Source: Nymphaea colorata
Lineage: Eukaryota > Streptophyta > Magnoliopsida > Nymphaeales > Nymphaeaceae
DNA: 64,000 nucleotides
Direction of reading: 5' to 3'
Assembly (NCBI RefSeq): GCF_008831285.2
Contig: NC_045150.1
Location: forward strand, 5,778,001-5,842,000
Shown: positions 2,357-53,955 of the stretch, in pieces
How positions within the stretch are numbered: the stretch's first letter is position 1
How the letters are laid out: each line of letters begins with the position of its first letter
Notes under the pieces: generated by a model
Told to the model about the DNA's origin: nothing
The model's database searches: none
What the model saw: only the letters and a program-made list of their open reading frames with translations
Position numbers and translations under genes: made by a program

Positions 2357-3088
2357 TCAAGCTCTACCATATGCAACGGAGGTCAAAGAAGAAACCAATT
2401 GCAACTAGAGTTGATTCAGTTGGTTGTATATCCTTCGATAAGGACGAGGGCCTCTCACACTCTCTAGAAGCAAAAACACAAGTTAAAGTTTATATTTTCC
2501 ATAACAAAAGCAGTGAATCAACTTTCTAAAAGCCATGTGTTCTCACTTCAACCAAGCAAAAAAAATACCGAGAAAAAAAAAAAAAAAAAAAAAAAGACTC
2601 CAGGTAATATCCAAGGGCCGCACAGTATAACTATTTCCAAAAACCATAAAACCAAAACTTCTGCAGAAATGTCTCCATCGGAACTGTAGATTAACTCGGA
2701 CCAACAGAGCTAGGGTTATAGTTGAAGCAGTCAGTAGAAAACCGAAATTACTAGCTGTGGTAGGTGTAAAGGAACTAAATGAGATACGTTCATACATACG
2801 TTTATAAAGAGGACATATGGTTTATGGAAGCAATGTAGTCAAAAAAACTAGGCAGGCCTAGTGGGTGGGCATTCAAAGAGGAACTGGTGCCTAGGCAGGG
2901 GCTAGGCCAGGAAAAGTAAGAAAAAGAAGAAGAAGAAAAGGGCAGAAACAGGTATTTGAGTCCCTGTTAACATGCATCTAGGTACTATAGCATAGTCAGA
3001 AAGGTGGCCGCTGAGGACCTAGGGGCCTATGTTCACTTTTCATTACACAGCATGGAAGATAAGAACACAAAGCTCGCTCATTCATTCC
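2357..3088. repeat. Tandem duplication, part A of unit 1
   Basis: Closely matches 7140-7904: both begin TCAAGCTCTACCATATGC and stay collinear to CATTCC just before the hAT target site. Copy-specific changes include an A-run of about 24 at 2572-2595 that is absent from the other copy. Together with 3089-7139 it makes duplication unit 1. Confidence 0.85.
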
Positions 3089-4154
3089 ACAACAGGGTAG
3101 CTACATTCAAGAATATAACAGCAATCAAAAGCTACCCATATGGTAACATTTTGTGATGGCCACTACCATACAGTCACAAGCTCAAACAATCAATAAACAC
3201 TCAACCTAAACATACAATATAAAACCTCCAGCCTAATGGAATGCTACAAGAGCTAGCTTCTGATCAGGTGAAAGATGGAAAAAGAAATGGAGTCATGCTC
3301 CATAGATGTACTTGCTTCTGCCTTCTTCAGACTTCTTCTATGGTCATTGAACCTCTCTTTCCATGAATAGCCACAAAGCCATTCATGATGCACTATATGA
3401 AAATGAACTTTTTCAAAGGCACACATAAGAATTAGAAACGAAATATACATGCTGCTTGTGAAAAAGACACTGTGTCCACCCCAATGTCCCATACTGTTGC
3501 TCTAGCCTATTTTGTCAAAAATATACTAACAAGATGATTCCACATGTTAGAAAAAATCAAGAAAATATTAAAAAAATTCAGAAAAAAAAATTGAAAAGTC
3601 AGGAAAAACATGTCCTATATAAAAAACTCACCACACACATAATGAACATTCATGATTCATCATTCATAGGTAGCTAGATAATATAATAAGTGTGAACTTT
3701 GAAGTATTTTACATCACATCAAAACATAATCTGCAGTCCTTCACCGTCAAATGAGAATTGAAATGATGTTTATGATTAAGTAACATTATTATCATTATCA
3801 ATGGATACAAGAATCATTGTCTTCTTCATCTTCATCCACATCCCTTCAAGGTGGTGATTTCTCCATTAAGACAACAATTTCTTGGCGATTTTTTTTTAAA
3901 TAGAGAAAACACACCCCATCACAACTCTTAGAAATGTTGAAATTGAAAGGGGAGAGATTTTTTAAGAAAATCTCAACAAAAATGGGCATCAAACCCTTTT
4001 TGAAAAACAGAGCCATATTGTAAGACAGAGCCAGTACAAGCAAGATACACATGCATTTTGTGTATTCCTATCATATGGTTTTTCCAACCTACAATACATA
4101 TTGTATCGTACAATACAGAATAACACTCAGCACCAACGCTATGAACCAAAAATG

Positions 4155-4325
<171 letters not shown>

Positions 4326-5670
4326 TACATTCATGTATTTAGGAAATGATCTTTCTGAATTGGAAAAAGACTATCAAACTTGCTACAAGCCAAATCCATG
4401 ACCAAGTCGAAACACAGTAATCTGACTTTATGGGTCCATCTCGATCAAAACCATGTCCACTTAATTTGCAAGAACCAATAATTATTGGATTGAGATTTTT
4501 ACAAACCAGTTTTATTTAATATGCTAAGCAATAAATCACATGGGCACTTTAGTAAGGTCCCCCGTATGTCATACCCCTGCCACTATATCGATACAATCAC
4601 ACGGCAAAGCAGGTACTTGAATACACTTGATCAGTTTTTGGATAGAAACTGATCCAAACAAATTACTTTTACTTGATTTAATTTGTTTTCTAACTCAGTT
4701 GCCTTTTTGTTTTAAAGTGTTATTGTCCATTAACATGTACTATTTCTATTTATATCACTTGTTCAATTAAATATTGTTTTCACTTTGAAATTTTTGTGGT
4801 ACTTTGTACTTTGTATGTATACATATGTATACCCTATCGTACCGCATATCCACATTTTCTAAAGGTGTTGTACCTGACTCCACATTTTCGTACCCGTACC
4901 CATGTGGCTTAGGCTAAGCATATTTAAGGACCATCTGATTGAAAAACAAAATAAACAGGGAAAACTAGAAAAATTGTCTAGGGGGGGCAAGTGGTGTATA
5001 GGATGAAACAGCCTACAGGCAATCAGGCATAGATTGCAAAAGAACAAGGGAAAGCAAAACAATCCTTCCATTGTTTGTAACACGTTCAAGAGTACACAAA
5101 ATTAACTCCAAAAAGAATAACAGTCCACCACTAGCAATTTTTCAATAGCAAATTATTCAAGGAAGAAAAACTGCTTGTCATCAGTTATTGTAATGCTTCA
5201 ACAGTTTCAAGGGAGCCATAACTTATTACAAAAGATTTTGAAAGAGGAAAGTCAAGCTTTATTGTGAAAGAAAGAGGGGGGCGGGCATGTCTCCACAAAA
5301 TAAAGAAATGATATGGCAATTTTTCTTTCAAAATTTGAAGGGAAAGTGGGCCCGTAGAATATCGCATTTCTCACAACCGAGAACAATGGCATGGAGCATA
5401 TTTCAAGCTCCATCATATTCTAAAATGCTTGGCTGATGCATACTTGCGAAATGGGCCACGGATGCCAACCATAAATCAAAGTCGTTGAACCATATGCAGC
5501 ATCATCTTTGACCAAATGAAAACCTAACACATACGTTGCCTTTTTTTTTGAGAGGTAACGGCTATGGATGTGAGCACCAGTGGGAACCAGGCGAACAAAT
5601 TTTTCTAAGAATTATGAAGATTTTCATTCTTAACAAATTTTGAGAGGGTTATAGTACTTCTATGATTTTC

Positions 5671-6079: not shown

Positions 6080-6850
6080 TCACATGTACACGGAGCAGCC
6101 ACTCGGCGACTTCAAGGTTCCTTCAGTCCCATTAGTTGTCGATCTTGGAAAATCGATCTCCACGTCGTTGCAGCGGACATTCAATGACCTCCACCGCGTG
6201 CGCCAACCGCCGGACTGGAATTGCACGACCGACAATACGAGGAACCTGAAGTGTACCTGACCTGCGCTTCGTTCAGAAGCCAACTTGCCGCTGTCGGAGA
6301 CGAACGCCGAGACAGCAGCAAACTTGGCCGTGAGGGTTGTGTTACTTTTCTTTTCCAGCTGGAAAGGAGAGAGGGGCGTGTCAGCCAATTTGGCTTCGTT
6401 GTATAAGACCAGCGCCTCGATCCTGCCGTAGGAGACCGCCATCCTCTTGTCCCTGTTGTCGACGGCGAAAGTTACATCCCAATCGGCGGTCAATTGGCCG
6501 CCAGAAATGTTGAATTGGCGGACAGTGACGGAGTTGACCGAAAAATTGGGTATCTGCGGCCGAAAGATAAGCCAGATGATGAAAAAAACCGCACCCACAA
6601 TGAGGAAGATGGCAATCGTGGCGATGATCAGCCGCCGAAAGAAGGGCGACGTGCTGTAGCCCCCAGATTCGCCGTAATAATATGCCTGGTTCGGCGGAGG
6701 AGGTGGAGGTGGCGGATAATACGATGGCGGGTAGCCGGAAGGAGGGTAGCCATTGGAGGCTGGGGCATACGACTGCGGCGGTGGGTACCCGGCTGGGTAC
6801 TGGCTGGAGGCGGCCGGATAGCCGGTAGCGGGCTTCTGTTGCTCCGCCAT
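6080..6850 (-). CDS. NDR1/HIN1-like (NHL) LEA_2-domain membrane protein, copy 1
   Basis: Predicted 256 aa, single exon. The start is the ATG at 6850 (MAEQQKPATGYP) in a good plant context (AAAGAATGGCGG). The frame is open further upstream, but only from a TTG. Residues 1-62 are a Pro/Tyr/Gly-rich cytosolic tail with GYPP and PPPPPPPP runs. Residues 74-96 are one strongly hydrophobic transmembrane helix. Residues of about 105-235 are the LEA_2 domain, with SVTVRQFNISGG and an NxT-type glycosylation site (SNTTLTA). The C-terminus is CSVYM. Members are type II plasma-membrane proteins, several induced by pathogens or stress, and related to NDR1. Single-exon structure is usual for the family. The gene is duplicated at 19398-20168 with the same length and no stops. 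The individual subfamily cannot be named from sequence alone. Confidence 0.9.
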   Translation of the reverse strand: MAEQQKPATGYPAASSQYPAGYPPPQSYAPASNGYPPSGYPPSYYPPPPPPPPNQAYYYGESGGYSTSPFFRRLIIATIAIFLIVGAVFFIIWLIFRPQIPNFSVNSVTVRQFNISGGQLTADWDVTFAVDNRDKRMAVSYGRIEALVLYNEAKLADTPLSPFQLEKKSNTTLTAKFAAVSAFVSDSGKLASERSAGQVHFRFLVLSVVQFQSGGWRTRWRSLNVRCNDVEIDFPRSTTNGTEGTLKSPSGCSVYM

Positions 6851-7139
6851 TCTTTGGGGCTCCGTCAAGTCTCGATGCCGGACGGCTAGCGCTTTCTTCT
6901 CAGGCAAGTTTGGAGAAGTTCTCCCTCCTTCGCTGTCTTGGGTAGAGAGCAGCGAGGAAGAAATAAACTAAGAAAAAAGAGGGAAAGAGTCAAGAGTACA
7001 GAGTAAAGGCTCCCGGCTTAATGAGGCGCGTGTAAGACGCGTAAAGATCGGGATTTTCCAGGCGGGCGTCATCCATCGCCCTCACCGCGTTGAGCGTTTG
7101 GCCCAGAACCAATTTCCTTTTCTTGTTCTTTAATCGGTA
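6851..7139 (-). promoter_or_regulatory. 5' leader and proximal promoter of NHL copy 1
   Basis: This flank is conserved with 20169-20464, including a pyrimidine-rich leader (TCTTTCCCTC) and the GCGTTTGGCCC segment. It ends at the duplication junction at 7139-7140, so copy 1 lacks the more distal sequence that copy 2 has upstream of 20464. No confident TATA box was picked. Confidence 0.35.
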
Positions 7140-7904
7140 TCAAGCTCTACCATATGCAACGGAGGTCCAAGAAGAAACCAATTGCAACTAGAGTTGAATC
7201 AGTTGGTTGTATATCCTTTGATTAAGGACGAGGCCCTCTCACACTCTCTAGAAGCAAAAACACAAGTTAAAGTTTATATTTTCCATAACAAAAGCAGTGA
7301 ATCAACTTTCTAAAAGCCATGTGTTCTCACTTCAACCAAGCAACAAAAAACTCCAAGTAATATCCAAGTGCCTGCACAGTATAACGATTTCCCAAAACCA
7401 TAAAACCAAAACTTATCCAGAAATGTCTCCATCGGAACTGTAGATTAACTCAGACCAATAGAGCTGGGGTTATAGTTGAAGCAGTCAGTAGAAAACTGAA
7501 ATTACTAGCTGTGGTAGGCATAAAGTAACTAAATGAGATAGGTTCATACATACGTTTATAAACGTTTATAAAGAGGACATATGGCTTATGGAAGCAATGT
7601 AGTCAAAAAAACTGGGCAGGCTTAGTGAGTGGGCATTCAAAGAGGACCAACTGGATGTCAAGAAACGTAAGAAAAAGAAAAAGAAGAAGAGGGCAAGAAA
7701 AGGTATTTGAGTTCCAGTTAATATGCATCTAAGCACTCAGAAAGGTGGCAGTTGAGGACCTAGGGCCCTCATGTGCACTTTTCAGCATGAATGATAAGAA
7801 CACAGAGCTCCTTCATTTCACAATAGGTAGAAGAGGGCAGAAAAAGGTATTTGAGTCCCAGTTAACATGCATCTAGGTACACACAGAGCTCGCTCATTCA
7901 TTCC
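7140..7904. repeat. Tandem duplication, part A of unit 2
   Basis: Second copy of 2357-3088. It follows directly on unit 1; the junction shares TCAAG with both parental ends (GTATCAAG at the end of unit 2 and AGTCAAG at 2355-2361). Inside it, a piece of about 50 bp (AGAGGGCAGAAAAAGGTATT...CATCTAGGTAC) occurs twice, near 7690 and 7832. It is cut off at 7905 by the hAT-like insertion and resumes at 15921. Confidence 0.85.
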
Positions 7905-7912
7905 ACAATAGG
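7905..7912. repeat. 8-bp target-site duplication, left
   Basis: ACAATAGG, matching ACAACAGG at 15921-15928 with one mismatch. The empty paralogous site at 3089-3096 reads ACAACAGG. Confidence 0.8.
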
Positions 7913-8090
7913 TAGGGGTGCACAACGAGTCGAGCTACTCGTGGATGAGTTCGAGCTGTATAATTAGTTAAACGAGTTGAGCTCGAGTCAGTGAGTCGAC
8001 TCGTTTAACTAATCGAGTTGAGTTCGAGTTCATTCAATTACACTCATTAAAGCTGGACTCGCCTCGAATGTGTAATTGACTCGGTTTTTA

Positions 8091-9496
8091 AAAACTGGTT
8101 TCCAAAAGGGTCTCAGGCGGGAAACCGTCTTAAGTTTTCATTTTCTTTTTTCTTTTCCCTCTCTCCGTCTCGAAACTTCTTCTTCTCTCCATCTCTTGTT
8201 TTGTAACTTTTCCCCCATTGCAACCGTAACGAAGATCTTCTGCCCCCCGCGGCCGCTTCAGCCTTCTCCCTTCAGCCTTCAGCCAAAGGTTCCTGCCTGT
8301 GCATGCAGCAAGGAGGGCAAGTTTCCTTGGCATTTTTGTTCTTTTCTTTTTTCCCGTGCTTTGTCGGAAGATATTTCATATGTTTTCTTTATGCCCAGCC
8401 CTAATGCTGCTTTCCACAGTAATAAAGTAACAATGAAATGTTGTTGTGAGTTGCAGAACATCCTACCGCCGACTTGTCCGTGCCTGGAGCGTGTGGGTAA
8501 GTGCTCGAGTGTCAGTGTGTGGGTATTTGGGCGAGGAAGGTCACTACCTGTGCTTAGGTGAGTCTCTGCGAACCTTTTATTATTGTAAGTTCTCTTCGTA
8601 AAGTCTATTTTGATGAACGAGTGTTTTATGTTTTGACTCTTTTGAGCATTTGAGCATGGTGGTACTGGTTGTTCGTGTCTGTTGGGGACTGCCGGTTTCT
8701 TGGCTGATTAGCCTGCTGTAAAAAAATTTCTCCGGAGTTAGACCAACTTCGATTTACAATTGGGGATAGAGATAAACATCAAAGTCTTATAATCAATAGT
8801 AGCCAAAAGCACCCAACAACGACGTCTTGCCAAACTAATTCATCCTTTTCCTTTTCCCACTCACTGCTAATTCATCCTTTTCCTTTTCCCATTCACTGCT
8901 TGATCCTGTTGGAAAGGGAAAGAAATACCAACAAATCGTCTAACAATCCGGTGGAATAAGGCTTTTTTTATAGGGTGGTATCTGAAAGGAAGCAGTAGAA
9001 AACAGTTCCACAGGAAAATCAGTACTAGTGGAAAATCAGGACACGCCTTGTTGCCTGAAGGGGAGTAGAGATTTTGGTCAGGCACATGGTTTTGAATCCC
9101 TTTGTTGGGGAAAACAAGTCATAAGCGTGGATGATGAAAAGTGTGAAGTGCAGTGGAAAAGATGCAACCTTCCTTCCACTGTTGTCAGTATTGGTTTGCG
9201 CTATGATACCTGCTGTGAATTGATATTGACAACACTATCTCAAGCAACAATGACAAGTCGAAGCTTCACATGAAGCACATCAACAATGTTCGTGAATTGC
9301 AATGTTCACTGAAATATATTGATAAATAAGTGAGTGGCCTCAAATTTAGAATTTTTACTTTCTATTTGTTATTCAAAGCAATTAATAAAACTTTATAAAC
9401 ATATAATAAACCAAAAAACGCTTTATAGTTGAACTCATGTATCGGCCAGCATCTGTGCAGTTATGGGGGACTAAGTTCAGGCTTTGTTCTTGTTAG
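8091..9496 (+). other. Left part of the hAT-like cargo, unidentified
   Basis: 8120-8260 is pyrimidine-rich like a plant 5' leader and is followed by GTGGGTAAGTG (around 8490), a good splice-donor match. An open frame at 9028-9273 (+), with a Cys-containing middle (VDDEKCEVQWKRC), matches nothing I recognise. Around 9430-9460 there is a possible degraded remnant of the preceding GDI exon (TVDFIGHA region), too weak to call. Confidence 0.3.
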
Positions 9497-11275
9497 CTTT
9501 ATGCAGAATCTTTGGCACGCTTTCAAGGGGGTTCACCTTACATTTATCCTCTGTATGGACTGGGAGAGCTTCCCCAGGTTTCTCTCAATTCTTAACTTGC
9601 AAATTTTTAAGTTCTTCTCTTAATGCTTAGCCATATTAAATTAACAAGATATGTAGGCATTTGCTCGTTTAAGTGCTGTGTATGGGGAACCTACATGCTG
9701 AACAAGCCTGAGTGCAAGGTACTCGATCTTTCTTCCGCTAATGTTGAGACGCTGAAGTTTGGTTTAAACTGACATTTGATAATCATAAGAACCTAGAGGA
9801 CCAACTCCCTGAACTTTGCCCTGTCAGGAATTATAAGCAGAGATGCAGCAGCCCTTGTCATTTTTTTGTTTTCTCTTTAAAGTATATGCTGTGTTGATAT
9901 ATTTCTTATGTATTCTTGTTGTTCAGATTTTGTGTTGATACCTTCTCTGGAATTTTGATTTCCTTTTCATATTTAGCAAAGATCTTTTGTTATATATAAG
10001 AATGTTCATGAAATAGGTAAAAATAAAATTCGTTAGCTAGCCATGAACCTTTAAAAAACTAACTAACATATGGTACCTTTTGCAGGTGGAATTTGATGAA
10101 AGTGGAAAGGCCTTTGGCGTGACATCTGAAGGTGAAACTGCTAAGTGCAAGAAAGTTGTATGGATCCATCTTATTTACCAAACAAGGTAAACATTTTCCA
10201 GCATCCAGTCTCAGCTTTTTGCTTCAAGTTGTTTTTTCTTTTTCATGACTGACTTTTAATTACCATTTTTTGAATTTAATAGGTTAAAAAAGTTGGGAAG
10301 GTTGCCCGGACTATTTGTATAATGAATCATCCCATTCCAAATACAAATGAGTCACACTCAGTACAATTTATTCTGCCTCAGAAACAGCTTGAACGCAAAT
10401 CAGACATGTAGGCATTTAACTTTTGAAGTGCTTGTGACACCAGTTGCCGTCATTATATGTTTTCAGCAATATTTATTTCGGCTGCATGTCCAAGTTTTTT
10501 ACTTGTTTCATTGTTTGTCTACATTTTTAGCTGGAGTTGCTGTTCTTCAGCAATACTCCACCTTTAGATTCTCAAGTTCGGTTTGTGGATCACTGGCCTA
10601 ACCATAAGCAATGAAGATTTTGTAACTCTATTGTCCATCAGTAAAAACATTTTCATCAAGTGCAAGGTCAACACTGATCACACACTCTAGGGCCAAGGAG
10701 ATGGTTAAACTGTAAATGGTTGCATGGTAGAGTCGGAAAGCTTTCCCTTAAGAGTGTTAGTTCCATTATTTCACCAATCACTGAAAATGACTTTGATATT
10801 GATGCGTATAACTTATTCTTATGTTGGTTACAGGTATCTCTTCTGTTGCTCCTACTCTCACAACATAGCACCAAAAGGAAAATATGTTGCTTTTGTTTCC
10901 ACGGAAGCTGAGACTGACAATCCAGAGACAGAACTAAAGCCTGGCATTGATCTTCTTGGACCAGTTGAGGTGACCTTTTTTGATACTTATGATAGATATG
11001 AACCTGCTAATGACTTTGCTAGCGATCATTGCTTCATATCCACTGTGAGTAATCCTTCTTCTTTGGGAGTCATCCACTTGGACCTAAGTTTTTAAGACCT
11101 GCTCTATCCATTGCCTACACTTTGGGAAATAAATTTTATTCTTTTCAAACCTATACTTGTTTTCTTAGAAGTCAAAAACGATAATTGATGCTTTATGCAG
11201 AGCTATGATGCAACAACACACTTTGAGTCAACAATGCACGATGTGCTCAGGATGTACACTGAGATAACTGGAAAG
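9497..11275 (+). pseudogene. Rab GDP-dissociation inhibitor (GDI) pseudogene, six exons
   Basis: Exons: 9497-9577 ([20 protein letters not shown]), 9657-9718 (AFARLSAVYG, then TYMLNKPECK after a shift), 10086-10186 (VEFDESGKAFGVTSEGETAK), 10283-10407 (HPIPNTNESHSVQ), 10834-11044 (YLFCCSYSHNIAPKGKY and DLLGPV), 11201-11275 (SYDATTHFESTMHDVLRMYT). Each has GT/AG borders in the right phase. Together they cover roughly the C-terminal half of plant GDI, the protein that extracts prenylated GDP-bound Rab GTPases from membranes. The N-terminal half and the last exon are missing. Two exons each lack one base (a G in the VYGGTY codons near 9696, and a T in VVCDP near 10162), so it cannot encode GDI. 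Retained introns show DNA-level capture, not retroposition. Confidence 0.92.
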
Positions 11276-11355
11276 GTATCCTTTTTAATTTTTTAGAAAG
11301 CTGTCCTGCACGCTTTCTGGTTTTCAAGTTAACAAACGAGGAGAAGATATAATTG

Positions 11356-11408
11356 TAAAAGCATTAAACAGGGCAGATGTAATCTCGGTGCTTCACGATG
11401 TACACTGA
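11356..11408 (+). repeat. Partial duplicate of the last GDI exon, left half
   Basis: After the intact exon end (11275) and its intron, the exon tail reappears as GTGCTTCACGATGTACACTGA, ending at 11408 where a transposon begins. The other half, GATAACTGGAAAGG, resumes at 15309. The intron motif GTAAAAGCATTAAACAGGGC occurs after both copies (about 11354 and 15368). Confidence 0.75.
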
Positions 11409-11826
11409 GAGGGCGTTTGATGGTTACAGGACACGCGTGTTCTGTTTTATTGATTTTTCATCAAACACCGTCCGCAGAACAGGATGGACATGACGAACAG
11501 TTGGACAGGGACTATAAATTATTCTCTGTTCCATGCTGTTCCGAGCTAACCCTCGGTACAGCGTGGAACAGAACAGCCTCCCACCCCCGATCGGCCCTCG
11601 CTTTCTCTCCTCCTCCTCCTCCGTCTCTGTGGTGAGCTGCTCACCCTTTCTCTTTCTCTCCTTCTTCTCCGTCTCTGCCCCCGAGCTGCCCTCGCCCTTG
11701 TCGAAAGATCGCTGTATATTTAAGCTGCGAAATCTGTCACCGATCAATCTAGTTTGCCCTCCATCTCCTTCGTCTTCGGCGTTCCTGCATCTTATGTTAT
11801 CATCTTCCGCAAGGAAAAGAAGGAGG

Positions 11827-12002
11827 ATGAGTTCTACAGGAGCCAAGGGCGGGCATGGGAAACTGAAGTCATCGAAGAAGGCCAGTCTGCAATTTCCGGT
11901 GAGTAGATCGCCCGATTTCTCAAAGCCAAAAAGTATGCTGAGCGAGTCGGTGCGGGTGCGCCTCTCTACCTCTTTGCCATGCTCGAGCATCTCTTAGCCG
12001 AG
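11827..12002 (+). pseudogene. Captured histone H2A first-exon fragment
   Basis: Begins with ATG: MSSTGAKGGHGK, then KKASLQFPV. A one-base loss near 11909 (AGATCGCC where AGAATCGCC is expected) shifts the frame. In the next frame it continues [20 protein letters not shown] and [11 protein letters not shown], ending at a GT donor (12003). This is the conserved start of the histone fold, and the break after LLAE matches the intron position common in plant H2A genes. The rest (VLELAGNAARDN onward) is absent, so no histone can be made. Confidence 0.9.
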
Positions 12003-12463
12003 GTATTGATTAAAAGGAAGTTATGATATTCGTTTCTGATTATATGTCCTTTGTTCTATCTGATGATTCAATCTGGGGTTTTCGTTTTTAAATATGTACC
12101 TATGTTTTCTTTTCATTCTTCCAACGGTTGTTTTCCCCTCTTTCCCGTCGTCTTCCCTCGAGTGAGTGACTATTGCCCCTAAAACCGATGAAAGAAATGG
12201 CTGTTTCTATTTCCAGTTTGTCTTTCGGTTGTAGTATTTGGTTTCCCCTTTTAGTATGTGTTGGTGGAGAACGAAAAGGAGTCTTTAGTTGATGTTCTTA
12301 GTCTTGAACTTCTTCCTGAATTTTTCTTCCATCTGGAAAATAAAAGCGATCCCTTTTGGTCAGTTTTGTTTTTGCCTATTGTTTTTCTTTTGGAGATTTG
12401 TTCTATTTGGCAACATCACAATCTTTTCCTCTTCATTTTGTTTTGTTGTTCTCTGGATCTCAG

Positions 12464-12637
12464 ATCATTGATGACCACATGGCGAGGACGGGGAGCAAAG
12501 CTGACCATCACCCCGACATGGTGGACGAGCTTCTAGCCTTTCTCGGAGATGTTGCCTCTGCAGGAACAGGGAATGCGCCGGATGAAGCTGCCCTCTCTAT
12601 AAAGCTCACAAGAGATAACATCAAGGCCATAATCATG
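12464..12637 (+). pseudogene. Captured cytochrome P450 (CYP71-clan) exon fragment
   Basis: A 58-codon open stretch bounded by AG (12463) and a GT donor (12638). It reads DDHMARTGSKADHHPDMVDE, then LTRDNIKAIIM at its end. This is the segment just before the oxygen-binding I-helix (AGTDT) of A-type plant P450s, and the break after IKAIIM is where the conserved CYP71-clan intron lies. No haem-binding Cys region is present. The captured piece is in frame and unbroken, but only about a tenth of a P450. Confidence 0.85.
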
Positions 12638-13430
12638 GTAATCTTCATCCCCCTTTCTCTCCTTCTCTCTCATTCTCTCTCTGCACAGAGCCACTTCGCT
12701 GTGGTGTATTTTTCTGCCTGAACTTTTTCTTTACATTTTCCGACTTAGTAATTATAAATATAAAAGGTCATGAATGAAAAGAAAGGGAAGCAAATTCATG
12801 GCTGGTTCAAAATTTTCAGTACGATTATGTTTTCTTCTTCATTTGATCATGCTTACGAAATGTTTGATGATGCATTAAGTACTAATTCATGGAATCATGG
12901 TGCTTGAGGCTCAAGTGTGGTTTATGCAAAGGGAGATCATTTGGTTTGAACGACTACCATTAACTATACATCCTTTTAACTATACATCCTTGAGATCCTT
13001 TTGTTGTGATTCTTGATACGCATAACCATACGGCCATACCTTTTATGTGTGCGTTTGTCTTTCCCTGTACGACATTATTTCAATTTCCTTTTGGAAAGTT
13101 CATAAAACGATTGAAATATGTGAACTGATATGTATAACCACTTTTGGTAAAAAGCAGCTCTCCAAAACCTGGAGCATACCAAGTCCTTGCTATATAAAAG
13201 TTACGTTCAGGATACCTATATGCAGTTTTATGTTTCTTACACCAAATGTCCTGAGTGCTGGCAAGTGTAAGCATGCATTTGGTAATTTGGTGTGCAGATA
13301 CAACTTTTGACTTTTTGGAAGAATACATGATGACACCAGCCCCTCAATATTTCTTTTTCGATTATCAGTTTCTAGTTTGTATTTTTTGAGTCTGCTTCTA
13401 AGCATAAGCATGTGGTGAATGTGTAAGTAG

Positions 13431-13605
13431 GTGCTTGGAGGAAGGGGCAGAGGAGTTCATAGTGAAGCCGGTGAAGCCCTCTGATTTAAAGAGGTTGAAG
13501 GATTATCTTGTTGGGAAGAAGGTGGTGGAGCAAGTAGGAGTGGGGATTCAAGCTCAATCGTGCAAGAGGAAGTTGAAGGATTATTTCGTTACTGCCATGC
13601 AATGA
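13431..13605 (+). pseudogene. Captured last exon of a type-A response regulator
   Basis: After an AG acceptor (13429-13430) the frame reads [20 protein letters not shown], then [14 protein letters not shown] and a tail to TGA at 13603-13605. The invariant Lys of receiver domains is in VKPVK, and CLEEGAEEF is typical of cytokinin-signalling type-A ARRs. The intron position before CLEEG fits that family. The phospho-acceptor Asp and the rest of the receiver are not present in the element. Confidence 0.88.
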
Positions 13606-14163
13606 CCTTGACGTCATTTCCCCTGCATCACCCTCTTCATCGCAGCCTCCACAGAAGCTGGCGAGACTAGACTCTCAGTCAGCAACTGTTGACTCCTTAC
13701 TGGCATAGAGAGAGAGGGAGAGAGAGTTCGAGGGAGAGCCGTGAGCAGTTATCTCTCTCTCTCTCTTCAGTTTTAATTTTGTAATGGCAATTTGAAGACT
13801 TACAAAAATCATGTAAAAAGGAAAATTAAGGTACCTTCAGACGGAATGAATAAAAAGTCTTCTTTTTTGGATATGTCTGCGTTGATTTTGTTTTTTATTT
13901 TTTTTCCCAGTTCATGATGAGGGCATATCTCAACTTCTCAATTTATGAGCTGGTATAATTCAACGAAGTTCTAGTACTTAAATTGTTCTCATCTATTGTT
14001 GTACTTCTAAACTGATAACGAAAGCACAAGCTATTGATGTACTTTGAAACTGTGGAGGTTATTCATCGTTCCTTGTTTTCGATATCTTAACTTCGTGCAT
14101 AGCCTGCATTTATCTCATTATTGCACGTCAATTTAAAATGGCTTATAATTCTTATTCATACAG

Positions 14164-14519
14164 GTAAAAGTTGTTACTGATTATGCAGAAAGGACCTGTG
14201 CTGCCAGTAAGTTATTGCCATCCATTTTTCGTTGTTGTTCAGCAGCAAAACTGTAGAACCTTGAGGAATTTTAGTTTATGTATTTCAAGTCATCGTTCGC
14301 GTGGAGTCTGGTCCACTCATGGCATCATCCCAGACGGTTGGCCTTCTATTGGTGGGAAGGATGTTTGCCTACAAATCCTCTCATGTTGGAAGAAGGGGAG
14401 GAAGTGGCAGTCTATGGTTTCAAGCAGAAAGACTGCATTTTCATCGCTTAAGCTGTCTTGGTTTTGAGACAGCGAGAAGCTCAAGAGGAGAATTTGTTGT
14501 TGGAGTAGATTCAGTGTGA
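14164..14519 (+). other. Exon-like segment in the Pack-type element, unidentified
   Basis: A possible short exon follows CAG at 14163 (VKVVTDYAERTCAAS, then a GTAAGT-like donor). A second open stretch, 14301-14519, reads MESGPLMASSQ. I recognise neither. Base composition is less AT-rich than the flanks, which suggests captured coding DNA. This could equally be untranslated sequence of the response-regulator donor gene. Confidence 0.25.
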
Positions 14520-15305
14520 GCTGTTGTTTCATAGGGTTGCCTGTATTAAAATTGTCTTTGTTGAGCACATTTGAGGTGGATGCATGAATGTCAGTGTATT
14601 GAATCTTTTTGTCATATTCTGTTCATTGGAATGTTTGCATATTTTGAATTTAATTGGTAGTTGAAAAACTTTATACACATTTGAGTCTAACTTTCAAATT
14701 TAAATCCGAATCTGACCAGAATATTAAACGACATTATATATGCTTTTTTTAACAACACTTATGAAATATGAACTGCATTATATGTTTTTTTTAACAGCAG
14801 ATTTTCAAATTATGTATGTACATATTGACGATATTAATGATTATTATTTGTTAGAATATTCATTTAAGAAGGAATTTGAATTTGATATTTCTTAAATTTG
14901 GAACATATCTCATTTTTTAATTGGATTACGATTTTTTTTTACATCCAAACCTAATTTGTTTAAGCAGTTTGATTGGTTAATTAGATATCTAATATGAATC
15001 TGGATTCATTGACATATTCCAATTTATATTAGATTGACATAAATAAAACAACAAAGTATCTGGTATTGCTGACAAAATTTCAATTTATCTTTTATAATTA
15101 TAATTAGATTTGTTTATTAGCGAACAAACATTAGACAAGACGGATAGAATCGACTAAACAGAAATATGCAAAACAAACGCTGGATTAAAAGAACATATGG
15201 TGTTCTGTTCTTAAAATCATTAAACATTGGACAAAGAACGTCATTGTTCATGAGGACAGGACGTCCTGAGTATCCTGTTTCAATGGACAGCAATCAAACG
15301 ACCTC

Positions 15306-15634
15306 TGAGATAACTGGAAAGGTATCCTTTTTAATTTGTACATCATTCAGTCTCCTGCTAAAAAATGTAAAAGCATTAAACAGGGCAGATATAATCTCAA
15401 TGTCTGAGTTGTTAATATTTGTATAAGTTGTGATCTAGCATTATTCTTCCATTTAATGTGTATAAAGAAATTTCAGAAGATCTGACTCCCAACCAATATA
15501 ATGTTTAATTTTGTCAACTCAAATAGGACCTCTTATTATTATTATTTTTTAAATTGAAGTTTTTTAAGGAAATCATAGGCAAAGAATAATTATGAGGATA
15601 AACATTAATGAGACATTTGATTTCCATGGTAACG
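15306..15634 (+). repeat. Right half of the interrupted GDI exon copy and adjacent intron
   Basis: TGAGATAACTGGAAAGGTAT continues the exon broken at 11408 and is followed by intron sequence similar to 11276-11395 (GTAAAAGCATTAAACAGGGC). After about 15400 the similarity fades into AT-rich sequence before the GAGCTCGAG arm of the hAT-like element. Confidence 0.7.
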
Positions 15635-16295
15635 AGTTAATCGAGCCTTAATCAAGCTCGATAAGGATTAAGGATGAGTACCAAACGAGTTTATTGAGCC
15701 TTAATCGAGCTCGAGCTCAACAAGTAAGGATGAGTAGTTTCAAACGAGTTTATCGAGCTTAATCAAGTCAAGCTCGAGCTTGACACGTGACTATCGAGTC
15801 GAGATCGAGCTAGCGTAGTCGAGCTATTTTCGAGCTCAAGTCAAGCCGAGCTCGAGGTCTTAGTCGAATCGAGTTCGAGCTGGCCGAGCTCGGGCTCGAC
15901 TCGGCTCGTGTTCAGCCCTAACAACAGGGTAGCTACATTCAAGAATATAACAGCAACCAAAAGCTACCATATGGTAACATTTTGTGATGGCCGCTACCAT
16001 ACAGTCACAAGCTCAAACAATCAATAAACACTCAACCTAAACATACAATATAAAACCCCCAGCCTAATGGAATGCTACAAGAGCTAGCTTCTCATCAGGT
16101 GAAAGATGGAAAAAGAAATGGAGTCATGCTCCATAGATGTACTTGCTTCAGCCTTCTTTAGACTTGTTCTATGGTCATTGAACCTCTCTTTCCATGAATA
16201 GCCACAAAGCCATTCATGATGCACCATATGAAAATGAACTTTTTCAAAGGCACACATAAGAATTAGAAATGAAATACAAGGACACTGTGTCCACC

Positions 16296-16975
16296 CTATG
16301 CTACACGGACATGGCAGATTTGGTCACGTACCAGCGTCGACACTTCGACACGCCGATCCCGACATGCTTGGATACGTTTTGGATCGGGTCTGGGTCAGAC
16401 ACGATTCAAACCTCTTTTATAGCCCGACTTGAGTCTTAACTTTGATTTTTTTTTTTTACGTTTTCACCGTCCTCCTTTACCCTCGATGATAACCGGCGAC
16501 AGCAGAGTTCTTCAATGGCGGGTGACGGCGACGGCGACGAGGTCCAGCGATCGACGGTGACATCCGGTGATGTCCGGCGGCAGCTGGCGACAGACAGGTA
16601 AGTGTTTTTTTTTCATTTCGATATTTCACAGCTAGGGTTTCATGCTTCATTTGGGTTTTTTTTTTGTTTGGGTTTTTCTTGCCGATTTGGGGATGTTTTC
16701 GTTTGAAGATTGGACGGTTAATCCGTCGATCTTCATCTTATTCTTCAATGCTATGTGCGATTTTGCCGATTTGGAGATTTGGGGATTTTGACGATTTGGG
16801 GATTTTGCCTTTGATGCTTTCTTTCTTATGATTTATGAGATTGTAAGAGTGAATTATTAATTTCATGTTTTTTTATTATCATTCTTAATTTTTTTGAATA
16901 TAATATTCATTGTGTTTGTATATCCTAAAATTTTAAAAATTACCGTGTCTGCGTACCCGTATCCGTGTGACATAG
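16296..16975. mobile_element. 680-bp hAT-like MITE, family CTATGTCACACGG
   Basis: Ends are CTATGCTACACGGACATGG and, inward from the right, CTATGTCACACGGATACGG. TGTCCACC is repeated exactly on both sides (16288-16295 and 16976-16983) and is single at the empty paralogous site 3473-3480. Inside, an exon-like piece on the plus strand (16515-16597) starts ATGGCGGGTGACGGCGACGG and ends at a GTAAGTG donor. A related element is at 34317-34859 in an EXO70A1 intron. Confidence 0.85.
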
Positions 16976-19397: not shown

Positions 19398-20168
19398 TCA
19401 CATGTACACTGAGCAGCCACTCGGCGACTTCAAGGTTCCTTCAGTCCCATTAGTTGTCGTTCTTGGAAAATCGACCTCCACGTCGTAGCAGCGGACATCC
19501 AACGACCTCCACCGCATGCGCCACCCGTCGTCCTGGAATTGCACGACCGACAATACACGAAACCTGAAGTGTACCTGACCTGCGCTTCGTTCAGAAGCCA
19601 ACTTGCCGCTGTCGGAGACGAACGCCGAGACAGCAGCAAACTTGGCCGTGAGGGTTGTGTTACTTTTCTTTTCCAGCTGGAAAGGAGAGAGGGGCGTGTC
19701 AGCCAATTTGGCTTCGTTGTATAAGACCAACGCCTGGATCCCGCCGTAGGAAACCGCCATCCTCTTGTCCCTGTTGTCGACGGCGAAAGTTACATCCCAA
19801 TTGGCGGTCAATTGGCCGCCAGAAACGTTGAATTGGCGGACAGTGACGGCGTTGACCGAAAAACCGGGTGTCTGCGGCCGAAAGATAAGCCAGATGATGA
19901 AAAAAAACGCACCCACAATGAGGAAGATGGCAATCGTGGCGATGATCAGCAGCCGAAAGAAGCGCGACGCGCGGTATCCCCCAGATTCGCCGTAATAATA
20001 TGCCTGGTTCGGGTGAGGAGGTGGCGGCGGTGGATAATACGATGGAGGGTAGCCGGAAGGAGGGTAGCCATTGGAGGCTGGGGCATACGACTGCGGCGGT
20101 GGGTACCCGGCTGGATACTGGCTGGAGGCGGCCGGATAGCCGGTAGCGGGCTTCTGTTGCTCCGCCAT
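19398..20168 (-). CDS. NDR1/HIN1-like (NHL) LEA_2-domain membrane protein, copy 2
   Basis: Predicted 256 aa from the ATG at 20168, single exon, with the same length and no gap against copy 1. It has the same plan: Pro/Tyr-rich cytosolic tail (PPPPPPHPNQAYYYGESGGY), a transmembrane helix at about residues 74-96, LEA_2 domain, and a CSVYM end. Differences are scattered substitutions such as SFFR-type changes before the membrane helix (YRASRFFRLL versus YSTSPFFRRL) and PGFSVNAVTVRQFNVSGG versus PNFSVNSVTVRQFNISGG. There are no stops or frameshifts, so both copies look under protein-level constraint. Its upstream region beyond 20464 is single-copy, so this copy may keep the ancestral distal promoter. 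Confidence 0.9.
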   Translation of the reverse strand: MAEQQKPATGYPAASSQYPAGYPPPQSYAPASNGYPPSGYPPSYYPPPPPPHPNQAYYYGESGGYRASRFFRLLIIATIAIFLIVGAFFFIIWLIFRPQTPGFSVNAVTVRQFNVSGGQLTANWDVTFAVDNRDKRMAVSYGGIQALVLYNEAKLADTPLSPFQLEKKSNTTLTAKFAAVSAFVSDSGKLASERSAGQVHFRFRVLSVVQFQDDGWRMRWRSLDVRCYDVEVDFPRTTTNGTEGTLKSPSGCSVYM

Positions 20169-20464
20169 TCTTTGGGGCTCCGTCAAGTCTCGATGCCGGA
20201 CGGCTAGCGCTTTCTTCTCAGGCAAGTTTGGAGAAGTTCTCCCTTCTTCGCTGTTTTGGGTAGAGAGCAGCGAGTAAGAAATAAACCAAGAAAAAAGAGG
20301 GAAAGAGTCAAGACTAGAGAGTGAAGGGCCCCCGGCTTAATGAGGCGCGTATAAGACGCGTAAAGATCGGGATTTTCCAGACGGACGTCATCCATCGCCC
20401 TCACCGCGTTGAGCGTTTGGCCCGGACCACATTTCCTTTTTTTTTGTTCTTTAATCGGTATCAA
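20169..20464 (-). promoter_or_regulatory. 5' leader and proximal promoter of NHL copy 2
   Basis: Conserved with 6851-7139. The frame stays open upstream of the ATG, but this is leader sequence. The unit ends at GGTATCAAG. Confidence 0.35.
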
Positions 20465-48653: not shown

Positions 48654-49175
48654 GATCACATGAAATTAAGTACTCTTTATATCTTGTAACTTCTAGCTCT
48701 GATTAATAAAATACTCTCTCACCTCACCAGTATGTTCTTTTATAAAAGTAGGTAAACAAATTATACATACCAAGAACTCTATTTTGAAGTATTTGCTAAA
48801 CATACTTGAGTGAATATATCTAGTAAATGTGCTACATTGGCATGAGAGTCAGTTATTGACTATTACCACTAACCTGTGCACTTAATCAATTAAGAGCAGG
48901 AAGCATTAACCAAGGGAAATGCTGATTCCAACCGGTTCAGCCGAGGCACAGTCCCGTCTCGAGTCGTGTCTTCAATCGAATCAGCTTGGTGAGACGAGTG
49001 CTCGCCCTCAAACTCCAACTCTATATTTCCAATGCATCAAACAGCCCCTTAGCGAAAAAAACTTTTATAAGAAAATTTAACCTCGCAAGATCTTTTTTTT
49101 TTCAAAAATAAGTATTTATTATATATTTTCAACCACTTTACTCATTTCTTTTTGTACGCATTCCGTTGTTCAATA

Positions 49176-49596
49176 ATGGAAAAATTGGCGATTGGTGGGC
49201 TTCTAGACTCCAGCAAAACGGGACCATTGGCTGTTGTTGGGATATTAGCCTACGACTTAAGCATAGTCAACGTGGTCTTCGCCTGCTACCGCCTCTGCAA
49301 TGACGGCATATAACCTTCTCTTAATACCATTCAGCTTCACTGTATACTTTGTTTCGGTTGGTTTCTATTAACAAAATTCTTTATGCTGACTTTGAGTTTT
49401 TGTTGCCGGTTACAGAAGATAACGAAGATAGAGGAGCCACTTATATAGTGATGGTCTTGTCATTGAGATCCCAACCATTTGCGATGATCAAATTAGGGAG
49501 GAAGGGGAGGTGGAAGAAGCAGACGAACTGTTCTTCAGAGCTGAAAATTTCATCAAAAATTTCTTTCGGCAAATGAACGAGGAGGTTAAAGAATAA
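49176..49596 (+). pseudogene. DUF761-like small protein, array copy 1 (broken)
   Basis: Starts MEKLAIGGLLDSSKTGPLAV, but a 12-base loss around 49305 brings a TAA right after LCNDGI. In the second part, two extra bases (ACTTATATAGTG for ACCTGTAGTG) shift the frame after NEDRGAT. The C-terminal motif can still be read in another frame. It is unlikely to be functional. Confidence 0.6.
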
Positions 49597-50264
49597 AAAT
49601 GTTGTGGATGATGTGAGGTACCCTTGATGATGATATTTATGCACGATTTTTGGAGGGACTGTTCCATAGTTGTTTGAATTTTAAACAATCTTTCCTTAAA
49701 CTTTGATTCTTTGTATTTCTTTTTATTCTTCTTCTTTTTACATTCTATTAAGTAAGGGTGGGCGTCGGGCCGCCCCAGCCCGTTTGACAATAAAAAAATA
49801 ATTTTTAAATTATAAAATAAATTTTTATAATATAAAATTTATTTTTAATAATAAAATACATTTATTAAGTTAAAAAAATTAATTGTTAACGAGCCGAATC
49901 GGGCTGGAAGTGACGAAACTGCTACATTGACATGACAATCAGTCATTCGCTATTACCACTTAACTTGTTCACTTAATCAATTAAGAGCAGGAAGCATTAA
50001 CCAACGGAAATGCTGATTCGAACCGGTTCAGTCGAGGCACGGTCCCGTCTTGAGTCGTGTCCTCACCGAATCAGTTTGGCGAGACAAGTGCTCGTCCTCA
50101 AACTCCAACTCTTTATTTCCCACTCATCAAACAACCCTTAGCGAAAAAAACTTTTATAAGAAAATTTTACCTCGCAAGCTCTTTTTTTTTTTCAAAATAA
50201 GTATTTATTATATATTTTCAACCACTTTACTCATTTCTTTTTGCATGCATTCTGCTATTGAGTA

Positions 50265-50696
50265 ATGGGGAAATTGGCGGTTGGCGGGCTCCTAGACTCC
50301 AGCAAAATGGGACAATTGGCTGTTGTTGGGCTATTAGCTTGCGGCTTAAGCATGGTCGTCATGGTCCTCACCTGCTGCCGCCTCTTCAATGATGGAAAAC
50401 CCCGTGGCATATCACTTTCTCTTAATACCATTCAGCTTCACTATATACTTTGTCTCGATTGGTTTCTATTTAACAAAATTGTTTATGCTGACTTTGAATT
50501 TTTGTTGTCGTTTACAAAAGATAACGAAGATGGAGGAGCCACCTGTAGTGATGGTCTTGTCATTGAGATCCCAACCATTTGCGAGGATCAACTTAGGGTG
50601 GAAGGGGAGGTGGAAGAAGTGGACGAACTCTTCGCCAGAGCAGAGAATTTCATCAAAAAAAATTTTTGGCAAATGAACGAGGAGGTTGAAGAATAA
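50265..50696 (+). CDS. DUF761-like small membrane protein, array copy 2 (143 aa, unspliced)
   Basis: One uninterrupted frame: MGKLAVGGLLDSSKMGQLAV, a hydrophobic segment at about residues 18-38 (VVGLLACGLSMVVMVLTCC), a central part, then GLVIEIPTICEDQ, an acidic stretch and FARAENFIKKNFWQMNEEVE. The last part resembles the C-terminal signature of DUF761 plant proteins (AExFIxxFxxQM), whose function is poorly known. In sister copies the middle looks like a 77-bp intron. Here the donor is lost (CACTATATAC instead of CACTGTATAC), and one extra T near 50470 keeps the whole region open. A TATA-like TTATTATATATTTT is about 60 bp upstream. The family call is moderate. Confidence 0.6.
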   Translation: MGKLAVGGLLDSSKMGQLAVVGLLACGLSMVVMVLTCCRLFNDGKPRGISLSLNTIQLHYILCLDWFLFNKIVYADFEFLLSFTKDNEDGGATCSDGLVIEIPTICEDQLRVEGEVEEVDELFARAENFIKKNFWQMNEEVEE

Positions 50697-51377
50697 AGAA
50701 TGTTGGGAATGATGTGAGGTTCCCTTGATGATGATATTTATAAACGATTTTTGGAGGGACTGTTACAGAGTTGTTTGAATTTGAAACAATCTTTCCTTAA
50801 ACTTTAATTCTTTGTATCTCTTCTTATTCTTCTTCTTTTTACTTTCTTTTAAGTAAGGGTGGACGTCGGGCTGGCCTGGCCTGTTTGACAACAAAAAATA
50901 TAATTTTTCAATTGTAAAATATTTTTTTATAATTTAAAATTTATTTTTAATAATAAAATACATTTATTAAATTAAAAAATAAAAAATTAATTGTTGAGAG
51001 GCCGGATCGGACAGGAAGTGACGAAACTGATACATTGACATGACAATCAGTTATTGACCATTACCACTTAACCTGTTCACTCAATCAATTAAGAGCAGGA
51101 AGCATTAGCTAAGGGAAATGCTGATTCAAACTGGTTCCGCCAAGGTACGGTCCCGTCTCGAGTCGTGTCCTTAGCCGAATCGGCTTGGCGAGGCGAGTGC
51201 TTGCCCTCAAACTCCAACTCTATATTTTCAATGCATCAAACAGCCCCTTAGCGAAAAAAAACTTTTATAAGAAAATTTTAGCTCCCAATCTCTTTTTTTT
51301 TTTTCAAAAGAAATTATTTATTATATATTTTCAACTACTTTACTTATTTCTTTTTGTATGCATTTTGTTGTTCAGTA

Positions 51378-51787
51378 ATGGGAAAATTGGCGGTTGGTGG
51401 GTTCCTAGAGAGCAGCAAAATGAGACAATTGGCAGGTGTATGGCTTTTAGCCTGCGGCTTAAGCATGGTCATTGTGGTCCTGGCCTGCTGCCGCCTTTGC
51501 AACGACAGCAAACTCCACGGCACATCACTTTCTCTTAATACCCTTCAGCTTCACTGTATACTTTGTTTGGGTTGGTTTCTATTCACAAAATTCTTTTTGC
51601 TGACTTTGACTTTTTGTTGCCGTTTACAAAAGATAACGAAGATAGAGAAGCCACCTGTAGTGATGGTCTTGTCATTGAGATCCCAACCACTTGCGATGAT
51701 CAAATTAGGGAGGAAGGGGAGGTGGAAGAAGCAGAGGAACTGTTCGCTAGAGCAGAAAATTTCATCGAAATTTTTTTTGGCAAATGA
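51378..51787 (+). CDS. DUF761-like small membrane protein, array copy 3 (C-terminally short)
   Basis: Proposed exons 51378-51555 and 51633-51787, joined through a GTATAC donor and an AAAAG acceptor, giving about 110 aa. It starts MGKLAVGGFLESSKMRQLAG with a hydrophobic segment (LLACGLSMVIVVLACC). The second exon reads NEDREATCSDGLVIEIPTTC and ends FARAENFIEIFFGK. A one-base loss near 51770 causes the stop before QMNEE, so the DUF761-like motif is cut short. The splice model is inferred from comparison among copies and is not proven. Confidence 0.5.
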
Positions 51788-52370
51788 ACGAGGTGGTTGA
51801 AGAATAAAGAATGTTGGGGATGATGCGAGGTACCCTTGATGATGACATTTATACACGATTTTTGGAGGGACTGTTACTTAGTTGTTTGAATTTTAAACAT
51901 TCTTTCGTCAAACTTTGATTCTTTGTATTTCTTCTTATTCTTCTTCTTTTTACGTTCTTATAAATAAGGGTGGGTGTGGGGCCACCCCGGCCCGTTTGGC
52001 AATAAGAAAATAATTTTTTAATTATAAGAATATTTGTTTATAATATAAAATTTATTGTTAATAATTAAATACATTTATAAATTAAAAAATAATAATAAAA
52101 ATTTAATTGTTAACGGGCCGGATCGAGCTGGAAGTGAGGAAACTGCTACATTGGCATGACAATCAGTTATTGACTATTACCACTTAACCTGTTCACTTAA
52201 TCAATTAAAAGCAGGAAGAATGAGCCAAGGGAAATGCTTATTCGAACCGGTTCAGCCAAGGCACGGTCCCGTCTCGAGTTGTGTCCTCAGTCGAATCAGC
52301 TTGGCGAGACGAGTGCTCGCCCCTCAACCACTTTACTCATGTGTTTTTGTAAGCATTCCGTTGTTCAATA

Positions 52371-52797
52371 ATGAGAAAATTGGCGGTTGGTGGGCTCCTA
52401 GACTCTAGCAAAATGGGATAATTGGCTGATGTTGAGCTATTAGCCTACGGCTTAAGCATGGTTGTCGTGTTCCTCGCTGCTGCCTCTGCAACGACGGCAA
52501 ACCCCATGGCGTATCACTTTCTCTTAATACCATTTAGCTTCACTGTATACTTTGTTTCGGTTGGTTTTTATTTACAAAATTCTTTATGTTGACTTTGACT
52601 TTTTGTTGTCATTTACAAAGGATAACGAAGATAGAGGAGCCACTTGTTGTGATGGTCTTGTCATTTAGATCCCAACCATTTGCGATGATCAAATTAGGGA
52701 GGAAGGGGAGATGGAAGAAGCGGATGAACTATTCGCCAGAGCAGAGAATTTCATCAAAAATTTCTTTTGGCAAATGAACGGGGAGGTTGAAGAATAA
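52371..52797 (+). pseudogene. DUF761-like small protein, array copy 4 (broken)
   Basis: Starts MRKLAVGGLLDSSKMG, then TAA replaces the CAA codon (GGATAATTGG). The 3' half is fairly well kept (DNEDRGATCCDGLVI, then FARAENFIKNFFWQMNGEVE). This unit also lacks part of the conserved upstream segment. Confidence 0.6.
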
Positions 52798-53524
52798 AGA
52801 ATGTTGGGGATGATGTTGGGGATGATGTGAGGTTCTCTTGATGATGATATTTATACACGATTTTTGGTGGGACTGTTACAAAGTTGCTTGAATTTTAAAC
52901 AATCTTTCCTTAAACTTTGATTATTCGTGTTTCTTCTTATTCATCTTATTTTTACGTTCTTTAAGGTGAGGGTGGGCGTCGGGCCACCCCAGCCCGTTTG
53001 AAAATAAAAAAAAATAATTTTTACATTATAAAATTATTTTTTATAATATCAAATTTATTTTTATTAATAAAATATATTTACTAAATTAAAAAATAAAAAA
53101 AATAATTGTGAACGGGCCGGATCGGGTTGGAAGTGACGAAACTGCTACATTGACATGACAATCAGTTATTGACTATTACCACTTAATCTGTTCACTTAAT
53201 CAATTAAGAGCAGAAAGCATTAGCCAAGGGAAATGCTGATTTGAACCGGTTCAGCCGAGGCACGGTCCCATCTCGAGTCATGTCCTTAGCCGAGGCACGG
53301 TCCCGTCTTGAGTTGTGTCCTCCGCCGAATCAGCTTGGCGAGACGAGTGCTCACCCTCAAACTTGAACTCTATATTTCCAATGCATCAAACAGCCCTTTA
53401 GTGAAAAAAAACTTATAATAAGAAAATTTTAGCTCGCAAGCTCTTTTTTTTCAAAAATAAGTATTTATTATGTATTTTCAAGCACTTTACTCATTTCTTT
53501 TTGTATGCATTCTGCTGTTCAGTA

Positions 53525-53955
53525 ATGGGAAAATTGGCGGTTGGTGGGCTCCTAGACTCGAGCAAAATGGGACAATTGGCTGTTGTTGCGCAATTAGCTT
53601 GTGGCTTATGCATGGTGGTCATGGTCCTCGCCTGTTGCTGCCTCTGCAACGACGGCAAACCCCACGACATATCACTTTGTCTTAATACCATTCAGCTTCA
53701 TTGTATACTTTGTTTGGGTTGGTTTCTATTAACAAAATTCTTTATGCTGACTTTGACTTTTTGTTGCAGTTTACAAAAGATAACGAAGATAGAGGAGACA
53801 CCTATAGTGATGGTCTTGTCATTGAGATCCCAACCATTTGCGATGATCAAATTAGGGAGGAAGGGGAGGTGGAAGAAGCATACAAATTGTACACCAGAGC
53901 AGAGAATTTCATAAAAAATTTATTTTGGCAAATGAACGTGGAGGTTGAAGAATAA
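53525..53955 (+). CDS. DUF761-like small membrane protein, array copy 5 (117 aa, spliced)
   Basis: Proposed exons 53525-53702 and 53780-53955 with a 77-bp intron (GTATAC donor, AAAAG acceptor), joined in phase to 117 aa. It starts MGKLAVGGLLDSSKMGQLAV and has a hydrophobic segment near residues 18-40. After the junction it reads HYNEDRGDTYSDGLVIEIPT, then an acidic stretch and TRAENFIKNLFWQMNVEVEE. Together with copy 2 it is the best-kept member. The intron is short for plants, and an alternative acceptor (TTGTTGCAG) would lead to an early stop, so the model needs transcript support. Confidence 0.55.

Follow-up and report, generated by a model that had tools for sequence, protein, structure and literature searches.

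A Pack-type transposon with pieces of unrelated host genes, probably nested in a hAT-like element, in the water lily Nymphaea colorata

The window analysed here, a 64,000-nucleotide stretch of the Nymphaea colorata genome (NC_045150.1, positions 5,778,001 to 5,842,000), carries at positions 11409-15305 an element that holds pieces of several host genes between short inverted ends. We consider it very probable that this inner element is a DNA transposon of the Pack type, non-autonomous and with PIF/Harbinger-like ends, that it was built stepwise and moved as a unit, and that it inserted in the Rab-GDI (GDI) cargo of a second, hAT-like element. An earlier note on this DNA had described a nested Pack-type transposon with pieces of H2A, P450 and type-A response regulator genes, and these three pieces are borne out by protein and PDB matches as well as by their donor genes.

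Ends, insertion site and relatives of the inner element

The inner element begins with GAGGGCGTTTGAT (11409-11421) and finishes with GAGGTCGTTTGAT in inverted orientation (15293-15305), the consensus of both ends being GAGG[G/T]CGTTTGAT, and a TGA stands on either side, as had been read before. Three lines of evidence show that the element is real and rule out a chance origin of its ends: an uninserted target matches its flanks, its left end recurs across the genome, and five full copies carry both ends. The uninserted target (11243-11291) lies about 150 bp upstream and owes its existence to the local duplication of a short segment at the GDI exon; when the flanks are joined and one TGA is removed, 48 of 50 columns are identical to it. 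The GDI exon at the insertion site is genuine, by PDB match. The earlier statement that removal of the element restores a GDI exon holds for the fit of the flanks to the uninserted copy, but the target was a segment duplicated from a GDI fragment that is itself broken.

Further family members were sought in the genome assembly (407,766,735 bases, with the window copy on chromosome C13), using the first 192 bases of the inner element as query. This search gave 40 scored matches among 135 candidates, window included, that is, at least 39 further members. Five full-length relatives, hereafter the young copies, share the piece order H2A, CYP84A1, a stretch derived from C6 and type-A response regulator. 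They are 98.5-99.3% alike among themselves and 89.4-89.9% alike to the window copy over aligned columns; all five have both GAGG[G/T]CGTTTGAT ends, and four show an exact TTA or TAA duplication. The near-identity of these sister copies suggests that the patchwork moved recently. Flanks were also read at 23 of the remaining 34 matches, in sets of 9 and 14, and close variants of the family end were present at 8/9 and 13/14 of them, respectively. The left-flank triplet is TTA or TAA in 7 of the 8 clean-ended members of the first set (L014 having no clean end) and in 12 of the 13 of the second (L043 having none). The single exception in each set reads TGA, strand as printed; since TGA also occurs beside other members, the TGA of the window is uncommon but not unique. 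Three members (L016, L020 and L021) have both family ends around a different interior, and six frames from them, searched with Pfam, convincingly matched neither cargo nor transposase. The earlier note had staked its reading on these ends recurring in other copies, and they are common to many.

Some observations nevertheless weigh against this reading. Taken alone, the end pair with its TGA is within chance expectation: the window contains 3 inverted 13-mer pairs (at most one mismatch, identical T-N-A flanks, span of 0.3-8 kb, low-complexity words excluded), 20 shuffles gave 19 pairs in sum, and 1 of the 20 likewise gave 3. The duplication in the window is TGA, whereas TTA or TAA is the norm of the family, and flanks are unequal at L013 (TTA/TAA), L020 and L028. 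Moreover, the family label of the inner element, like that of the outer one, is drawn from ends and duplications.

The last point bears on whether the inner element should instead be placed in a different superfamily, such as hAT or CACTA, with no more than a resemblance to PIF/Harbinger elements. No transposase was detected by Pfam in 11 of the frames of the inner element, and ends of hAT and PIF elements in maize are not always distinguishable, according to PMC8903248. According to the same text, however, hAT elements produce 8-bp duplications and PIF elements mostly TTA/TAA, and 3-bp TTA or TAA flanks are found in most examined members of the family; nor do the ends of the inner element start with CACTA. 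We thus regard membership of another superfamily as most improbable. CACTA and MULE elements were specifically rejected, as neither the ends nor the duplication length fit, and the inner element combines the features of a Pack-PIF, namely shared short inverted ends, a 3-bp duplication that is mostly TTA/TAA in the family, host pieces from distant donors, and no transposase in the 11 frames searched.

Captured pieces, order of capture and the fusion frame

The donors of the captured pieces are located on four chromosomes: C3 (H2A), C2 (CYP84A1), C8 (ARR17-like) and C6, the last contributing a stretch that the earlier note had not recognised. The BLAST searches it had proposed thus led to separate source genes, and a single ordinary locus holding all pieces, which would have spoken against a Pack-type element, was rejected. 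The H2A piece matches plant H2A in the PDB (E 1.6e-11). The P450 piece is CYP84A1 and is 89% alike to an N. thermarum protein, and the regulator piece is, at the protein level, 94% alike to an N. thermarum model and 84% to the N. colorata ARR17-like protein; Pfam and PDB searches with these two pieces returned nothing significant.

Capture from the C3 H2A gene (L029), which we take to have two exons by comparison with H2A, stops 75 bp before exon 2 (81% alike in the young copy L010; window values are given in Table 1). Capture from the CYP84A1 gene (L023) begins within exon 1 and runs through the native donor into intron 1, over about 357 nt in the young copies (about 90% alike) and 350 nt in the window. 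The C6 stretch is 86-87% alike to its source (L024) in the young copies, and the regulator region of L010 is 86% alike to L026. Native splice borders, which had been proposed for each piece, are present at the H2A donor (GAG/GTATTG), the CYP84A1 donor (ATG/GTAATC) and the regulator acceptor (AG/GTGC), but not at the left edge of the P450 piece, which lies inside exon 1. This edge resembles a splice acceptor because of a 64-bp deletion at the H2A/CYP84A1 junction of the window copy, which, compared with the young copies, is also shorter by 18 bp within H2A exon 1 and by 26 bp within the regulator exon.

Two loci related to the donors deserve mention. An H2A-like locus with a stop, L030 (C12:5469500-5479400), shows two matching parts about 6 kb apart. 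At L026 (C8:21949500-21957500), the N. colorata isoform P0081 joins an upstream frame to the last exon of the regulator (3633-4157 and 4307-4609), using the same acceptor as the element carries, so that this acceptor may accept exons from other places.

Junctions were read from the ends of BLAST matches in L010. The H2A-side and CYP84A1 parents share three bases (TCG), the CYP84A1 and C6 parents share three (AAA), and 15 nt between the C6 stretch and the regulator are assigned to neither. Another relative, L028 on C7, carries the family left end and shares the H2A stretch as far as this H2A/CYP84A1 junction (93% alike over the last 123 bases), but nothing in it matches the CYP84A1, C6 or regulator parts. 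It is flanked by TAA and TAC and contains about 0.8 kb of additional sequence near its left end. L028 fits a history in which H2A was captured first and the other pieces later, although it could instead be a derivative with a swapped right part. L027 (C11) has part of the regulator 3' flank and the right end only (73% alike).

The right part of the window copy has a separate affinity. From 14170 to the right end, it is 92-93% and then 86% alike to L047 and L048, and about 80% alike to L049 and L050; in three of these four the right end is clean and adjoins TTA or TAA, and in L050 it is damaged. This right portion of about 1.1 kb is not present in the five young copies. As it matches other members, the window copy looks like a recombinant, which is consistent with the model of neighbouring members moving or being repaired together put forward in PMC8903248. 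A stretch within it (14265-14516) was considered as a further captured coding piece, but a protein search gave 44 candidates, none with E <= 1, and the stretch proved common to other family members.

We would reconstruct the history of the inner element as follows. An older element with the family left end may first have contained the 5' portion of an H2A gene. The CYP84A1 piece, the C6 stretch and the ARR17-like end would have joined it later, at junctions where the adjoining parts share few bases or none, either because neighbouring insertions moved as one or through faulty gap repair. The assembled patchwork would then have been mobilised as a whole by cut-and-paste transposition, presumably through a PIF/Harbinger transposase, an old line giving rise to the window copy, with its right 1.1 kb matching other members, and a young line to the five near-identical copies. 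Finally, the window copy would have landed in the duplicated GDI exon piece, by then cargo of the hAT-like element. In the young copy L012 (C6:19291200-19298500), a second family end, AAGGTCGTTTGATGG, begins at 4113, directly past the duplication; members lying side by side are the arrangement required by the capture model.

The patchwork has a counterpart in N. thermarum. An annotated gene model of 209 amino acids, named two-component response regulator (P0077), matches element bases 125-478 (82%) and 2015-2267 (the regulator part, 94-97%) and is, as modelled, an H2A-leader/regulator fusion matching the element. P0077 and the elements have in common the I and C of GIQAQSC (N or H and R in genes P0078-P0080) and also GHGKLK (GRGKPK in the C3 H2A gene); these shared residues suggest that the H2A and regulator pieces were already united in the element before the species split. 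A common GAEE was discarded as evidence of kinship, as Victoria P0080 has it too. The joined frame, whose splice site we infer from the P0077 protein, is open in all five young copies, both from the H2A-internal GT and from the native H2A donor, and in three of them it reaches up to the P0077 start (it starts later in L010 and L013). The window copy does not have the H2A-internal GT, and a stop precedes its native donor. The chimeric transcript envisaged in the earlier note is therefore unsupported for the window copy, the frame being broken, but such a transcript is possible from the sister copies and in N. thermarum.

The annotation of P0077 and the open frames of the young copies could mean that the family also yields a real fusion gene, with the H2A promoter and start spliced to the regulator tail and with some copies used by the plant. 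We find this very unlikely: P0077 is a gene model only, and a shift has put the H2A part of the window copy, and of the five young copies, out of frame. No sign of selection emerges either, as non-synonymous (dN) and synonymous (dS) divergence between the window copy and L010 are 0.046 and 0.054 for the P450 part, and the regulator part shows one change of each kind. Of the receiver domain, moreover, the fusion retains just the last exon, and no full domain was detected in it by Pfam. A broader proposal, in which the H2A leader-regulator tail would be a transposon-made gene that arose before the split, was kept in at least two Nymphaea species, is spliced from the captured promoter and native sites, and spread as a multi-copy expression unit, appears distinctly unlikely. 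The match nevertheless suggests that an N. thermarum gene model called a response regulator is transposon-borne, which would matter for gene counts and for studies of cytokinin signalling in that species.

The outer element and other features of the window

The inner element had been described as nested. This stands and can be extended, as the GDI piece in which it lies is itself cargo of an outer hAT-like element; most likely, then, one element with captured gene sequence has the other inside it. Self-comparison revealed a tandem duplication (2357-3096 with 7140-7827, and 3089-3445 with 15921-16276), the second copy of which is split by 7913-15920 and the first copy of which is continuous over the site. 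Inverted ends of hAT elements start with TAGGG or CAGGG, and the outer ends, TAGGGGTGCACA and TAGGGCTGAACA, agree with this. The GDI fragment, which we take to correspond approximately to residues 210-428 of plant GDI, has two close relatives, matches to which both begin at 9461. At L046 (C11), the GDI piece is 96% alike and adjoins the same right end (29/30 bases), followed by the 8 bp TATAACAT. At L045 (C3), a GDI-like locus is 93-95% alike and has at least one more upstream exon. Additional GDI genes may account for weaker matches on C2 and C4 (71-84%). The outer right end also recurs beside CYP84A1 at L023 (57 nt, 88%), and a second copy with both ends was not found at the loci examined.

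In an alternative account, no hAT-type insertion is involved at 7913-15920: the GDI fragment would have arrived by ordinary duplication or gap repair, and the inner element would be the sole transposon. Two observations weigh in that direction and against our own reading, namely the one mismatch between the 8-bp flanks ACAATAGG and ACAACAGG and the left end of the L046 copy, which was not found in the 4.6 kb examined; the C3 locus likewise showed no outer-element ends in 4.7 kb. Against this account, the neighbouring duplicate is unbroken over the site, with a single copy of the 8 bp, the outer ends are inverted repeats alike at 10 of 12 positions, and the right end is found next to GDI on C11 and again next to CYP84A1. 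Absence of a hAT-type insertion is thus quite improbable, and we retain the reading of 7913-15920 as a hAT-like element with GDI cargo. Pfam detected no hAT transposase in 8 frames from 8076-9270, no genome-wide search having been made.

Other features of the window were noted. Positions 360-717 are 70-73% alike to the right-end region of the outer element and end at 717 in a weak end match (3 mismatches, within chance alone); this is perhaps the right end of another hAT-like element. About 690 bp at 16277-16968, which only the second of the tandem duplicates contains, have GTGTCCACCC at both edges (by eye) and are probably another insertion. Two gene copies lie within the tandem duplication on the minus strand (6083-6967 and 19398-20336), the first of them with a weak LEA_2 match (E 7.9e-5, below the Pfam cut-off). 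A tandem array at 48830-55230 consists of units of about 1.1 kb that are 74-91% alike, three of them near GGGGCTGTTTGAT sites. An Rfam scan of the window gave no match.

Table 1. Features of the window and relatives of the inner element (window positions unless a chromosome is named)
Feature	Position	Strand	Remarks
Inner Pack-type element, PIF/Harbinger-like ends	11409-15305	+	3897 bp
Left TGA duplication of inner element	11406-11408	+	
Right TGA duplication of inner element	15306-15308	+	
Uninserted copy of inner element's target	11243-11291	+	upstream of inner element
Family left end	11409-11781	+	first 180-290 bases common to many members
H2A piece: leader, exon 1, native donor, most of intron 1	11782-12461	+	78% to C3 gene L029; PDB match
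CYP84A1 piece: end of exon 1, native donor, start of intron 1	12463-12812	+	91% to C2 gene L023
C6-derived stretch	12810-13337	+	84% to L024
ARR17-like type-A regulator piece: end of last intron, native acceptor, last exon, 3' flank	13353-13895	+	82% to C8 gene L026
Right part including right end	14170-15305	+	common to other family members, not to the five young copies
Outer hAT-like element with Rab-GDI fragment	7913-15920		8008 bp; ends TAGGGGTGCACA / TAGGGCTGAACA, 10/12 alike
Left 8-bp duplication of outer element, ACAATAGG	7905-7912	+	
Right 8-bp duplication of outer element, ACAACAGG	15921-15928	+	
Empty site of outer element, single ACAACAGG	3089-3096	+	other copy of tandem duplication
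Captured Rab-GDI fragment with introns and frame shifts	9461-11330	+	PDB match; C11 and C3 relatives
Young copy	C11:16.45M		3071 bp; flanks TAA/TAA
Young copy	C11:4.36M		3095 bp; flanks TAA/TAA
Young copy	C14:12.29M		3095 bp; flanks TTA/TTA
Young copy	C6:19.29M		3066 bp; flanks TTA/TTA
Young copy (L013)	C3:5.30M		3093 bp; flanks TTA/TAA
L016			2323 bp; flanks TTA/TTA; both family ends, different interior
L021			4006 bp; flanks TTA/TTA; both family ends, different interior
L020			3116 bp; unequal flanks; both family ends, different interior

Comparison with known systems

Pack-PIFs, multi-locus elements and fused family members have already been published, as Gisby and Catoni 2022 (PMC8903248) set out. 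We found no report of Pack-TYPE elements in Nymphaea in the literature searched, most subscription journals being outside that search, and make no claim that the family is unpublished. As an example of gene shuffling in a flowering plant of an early-branching lineage it is unusually complete, with four donors, junctions read at the level of single bases, a relative holding what may be the first cargo, and old as well as young copies. To this are added a right part apparently exchanged with other members and, most likely, one gene-carrying element inside another.

The inner element resembles the Pack-PIF and Pack-TYPE elements of rice and maize (PMC8903248) in being non-autonomous, with short inverted ends, TTA/TAA duplications and several host loci per element, and also in its fused family members and in the gain of cargo within conserved ends. 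It differs from the Pack-PIFs of rice and maize in its water lily host, in its four donors traced with their splice sites, in the existence of an H2A-only relative, in the nesting of one gene-carrying element in another and in the TGA duplication of the window. MULEs have long inverted ends and duplications of about 9 bp, neither of which is seen in the inner element, and Helitrons have no inverted ends and no target duplication, whereas the inner element has both. It is nonetheless similar to rice Pack-MULEs as a DNA transposon that moves gene pieces, some Pack-MULEs giving chimeric transcripts (PMC8903248 and PMC13317346), and to Helitrons in that pieces of several genes are gathered (PMC13317346). 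The outer element is in turn comparable to Pack-hAT elements, which share its 8-bp duplication, inverted ends and host piece, here GDI (PMC8903248); it departs from them in that its ends are only 10/12 alike, its duplication has a mismatch and one end has been seen in a second copy. Classification of the inner element as a Pack-type element with PIF/Harbinger-like ends is thus well supported, and what raises it above an ordinary copy of such an element is its nesting, together with the steps that can be traced in it and the fusion model of N. thermarum.

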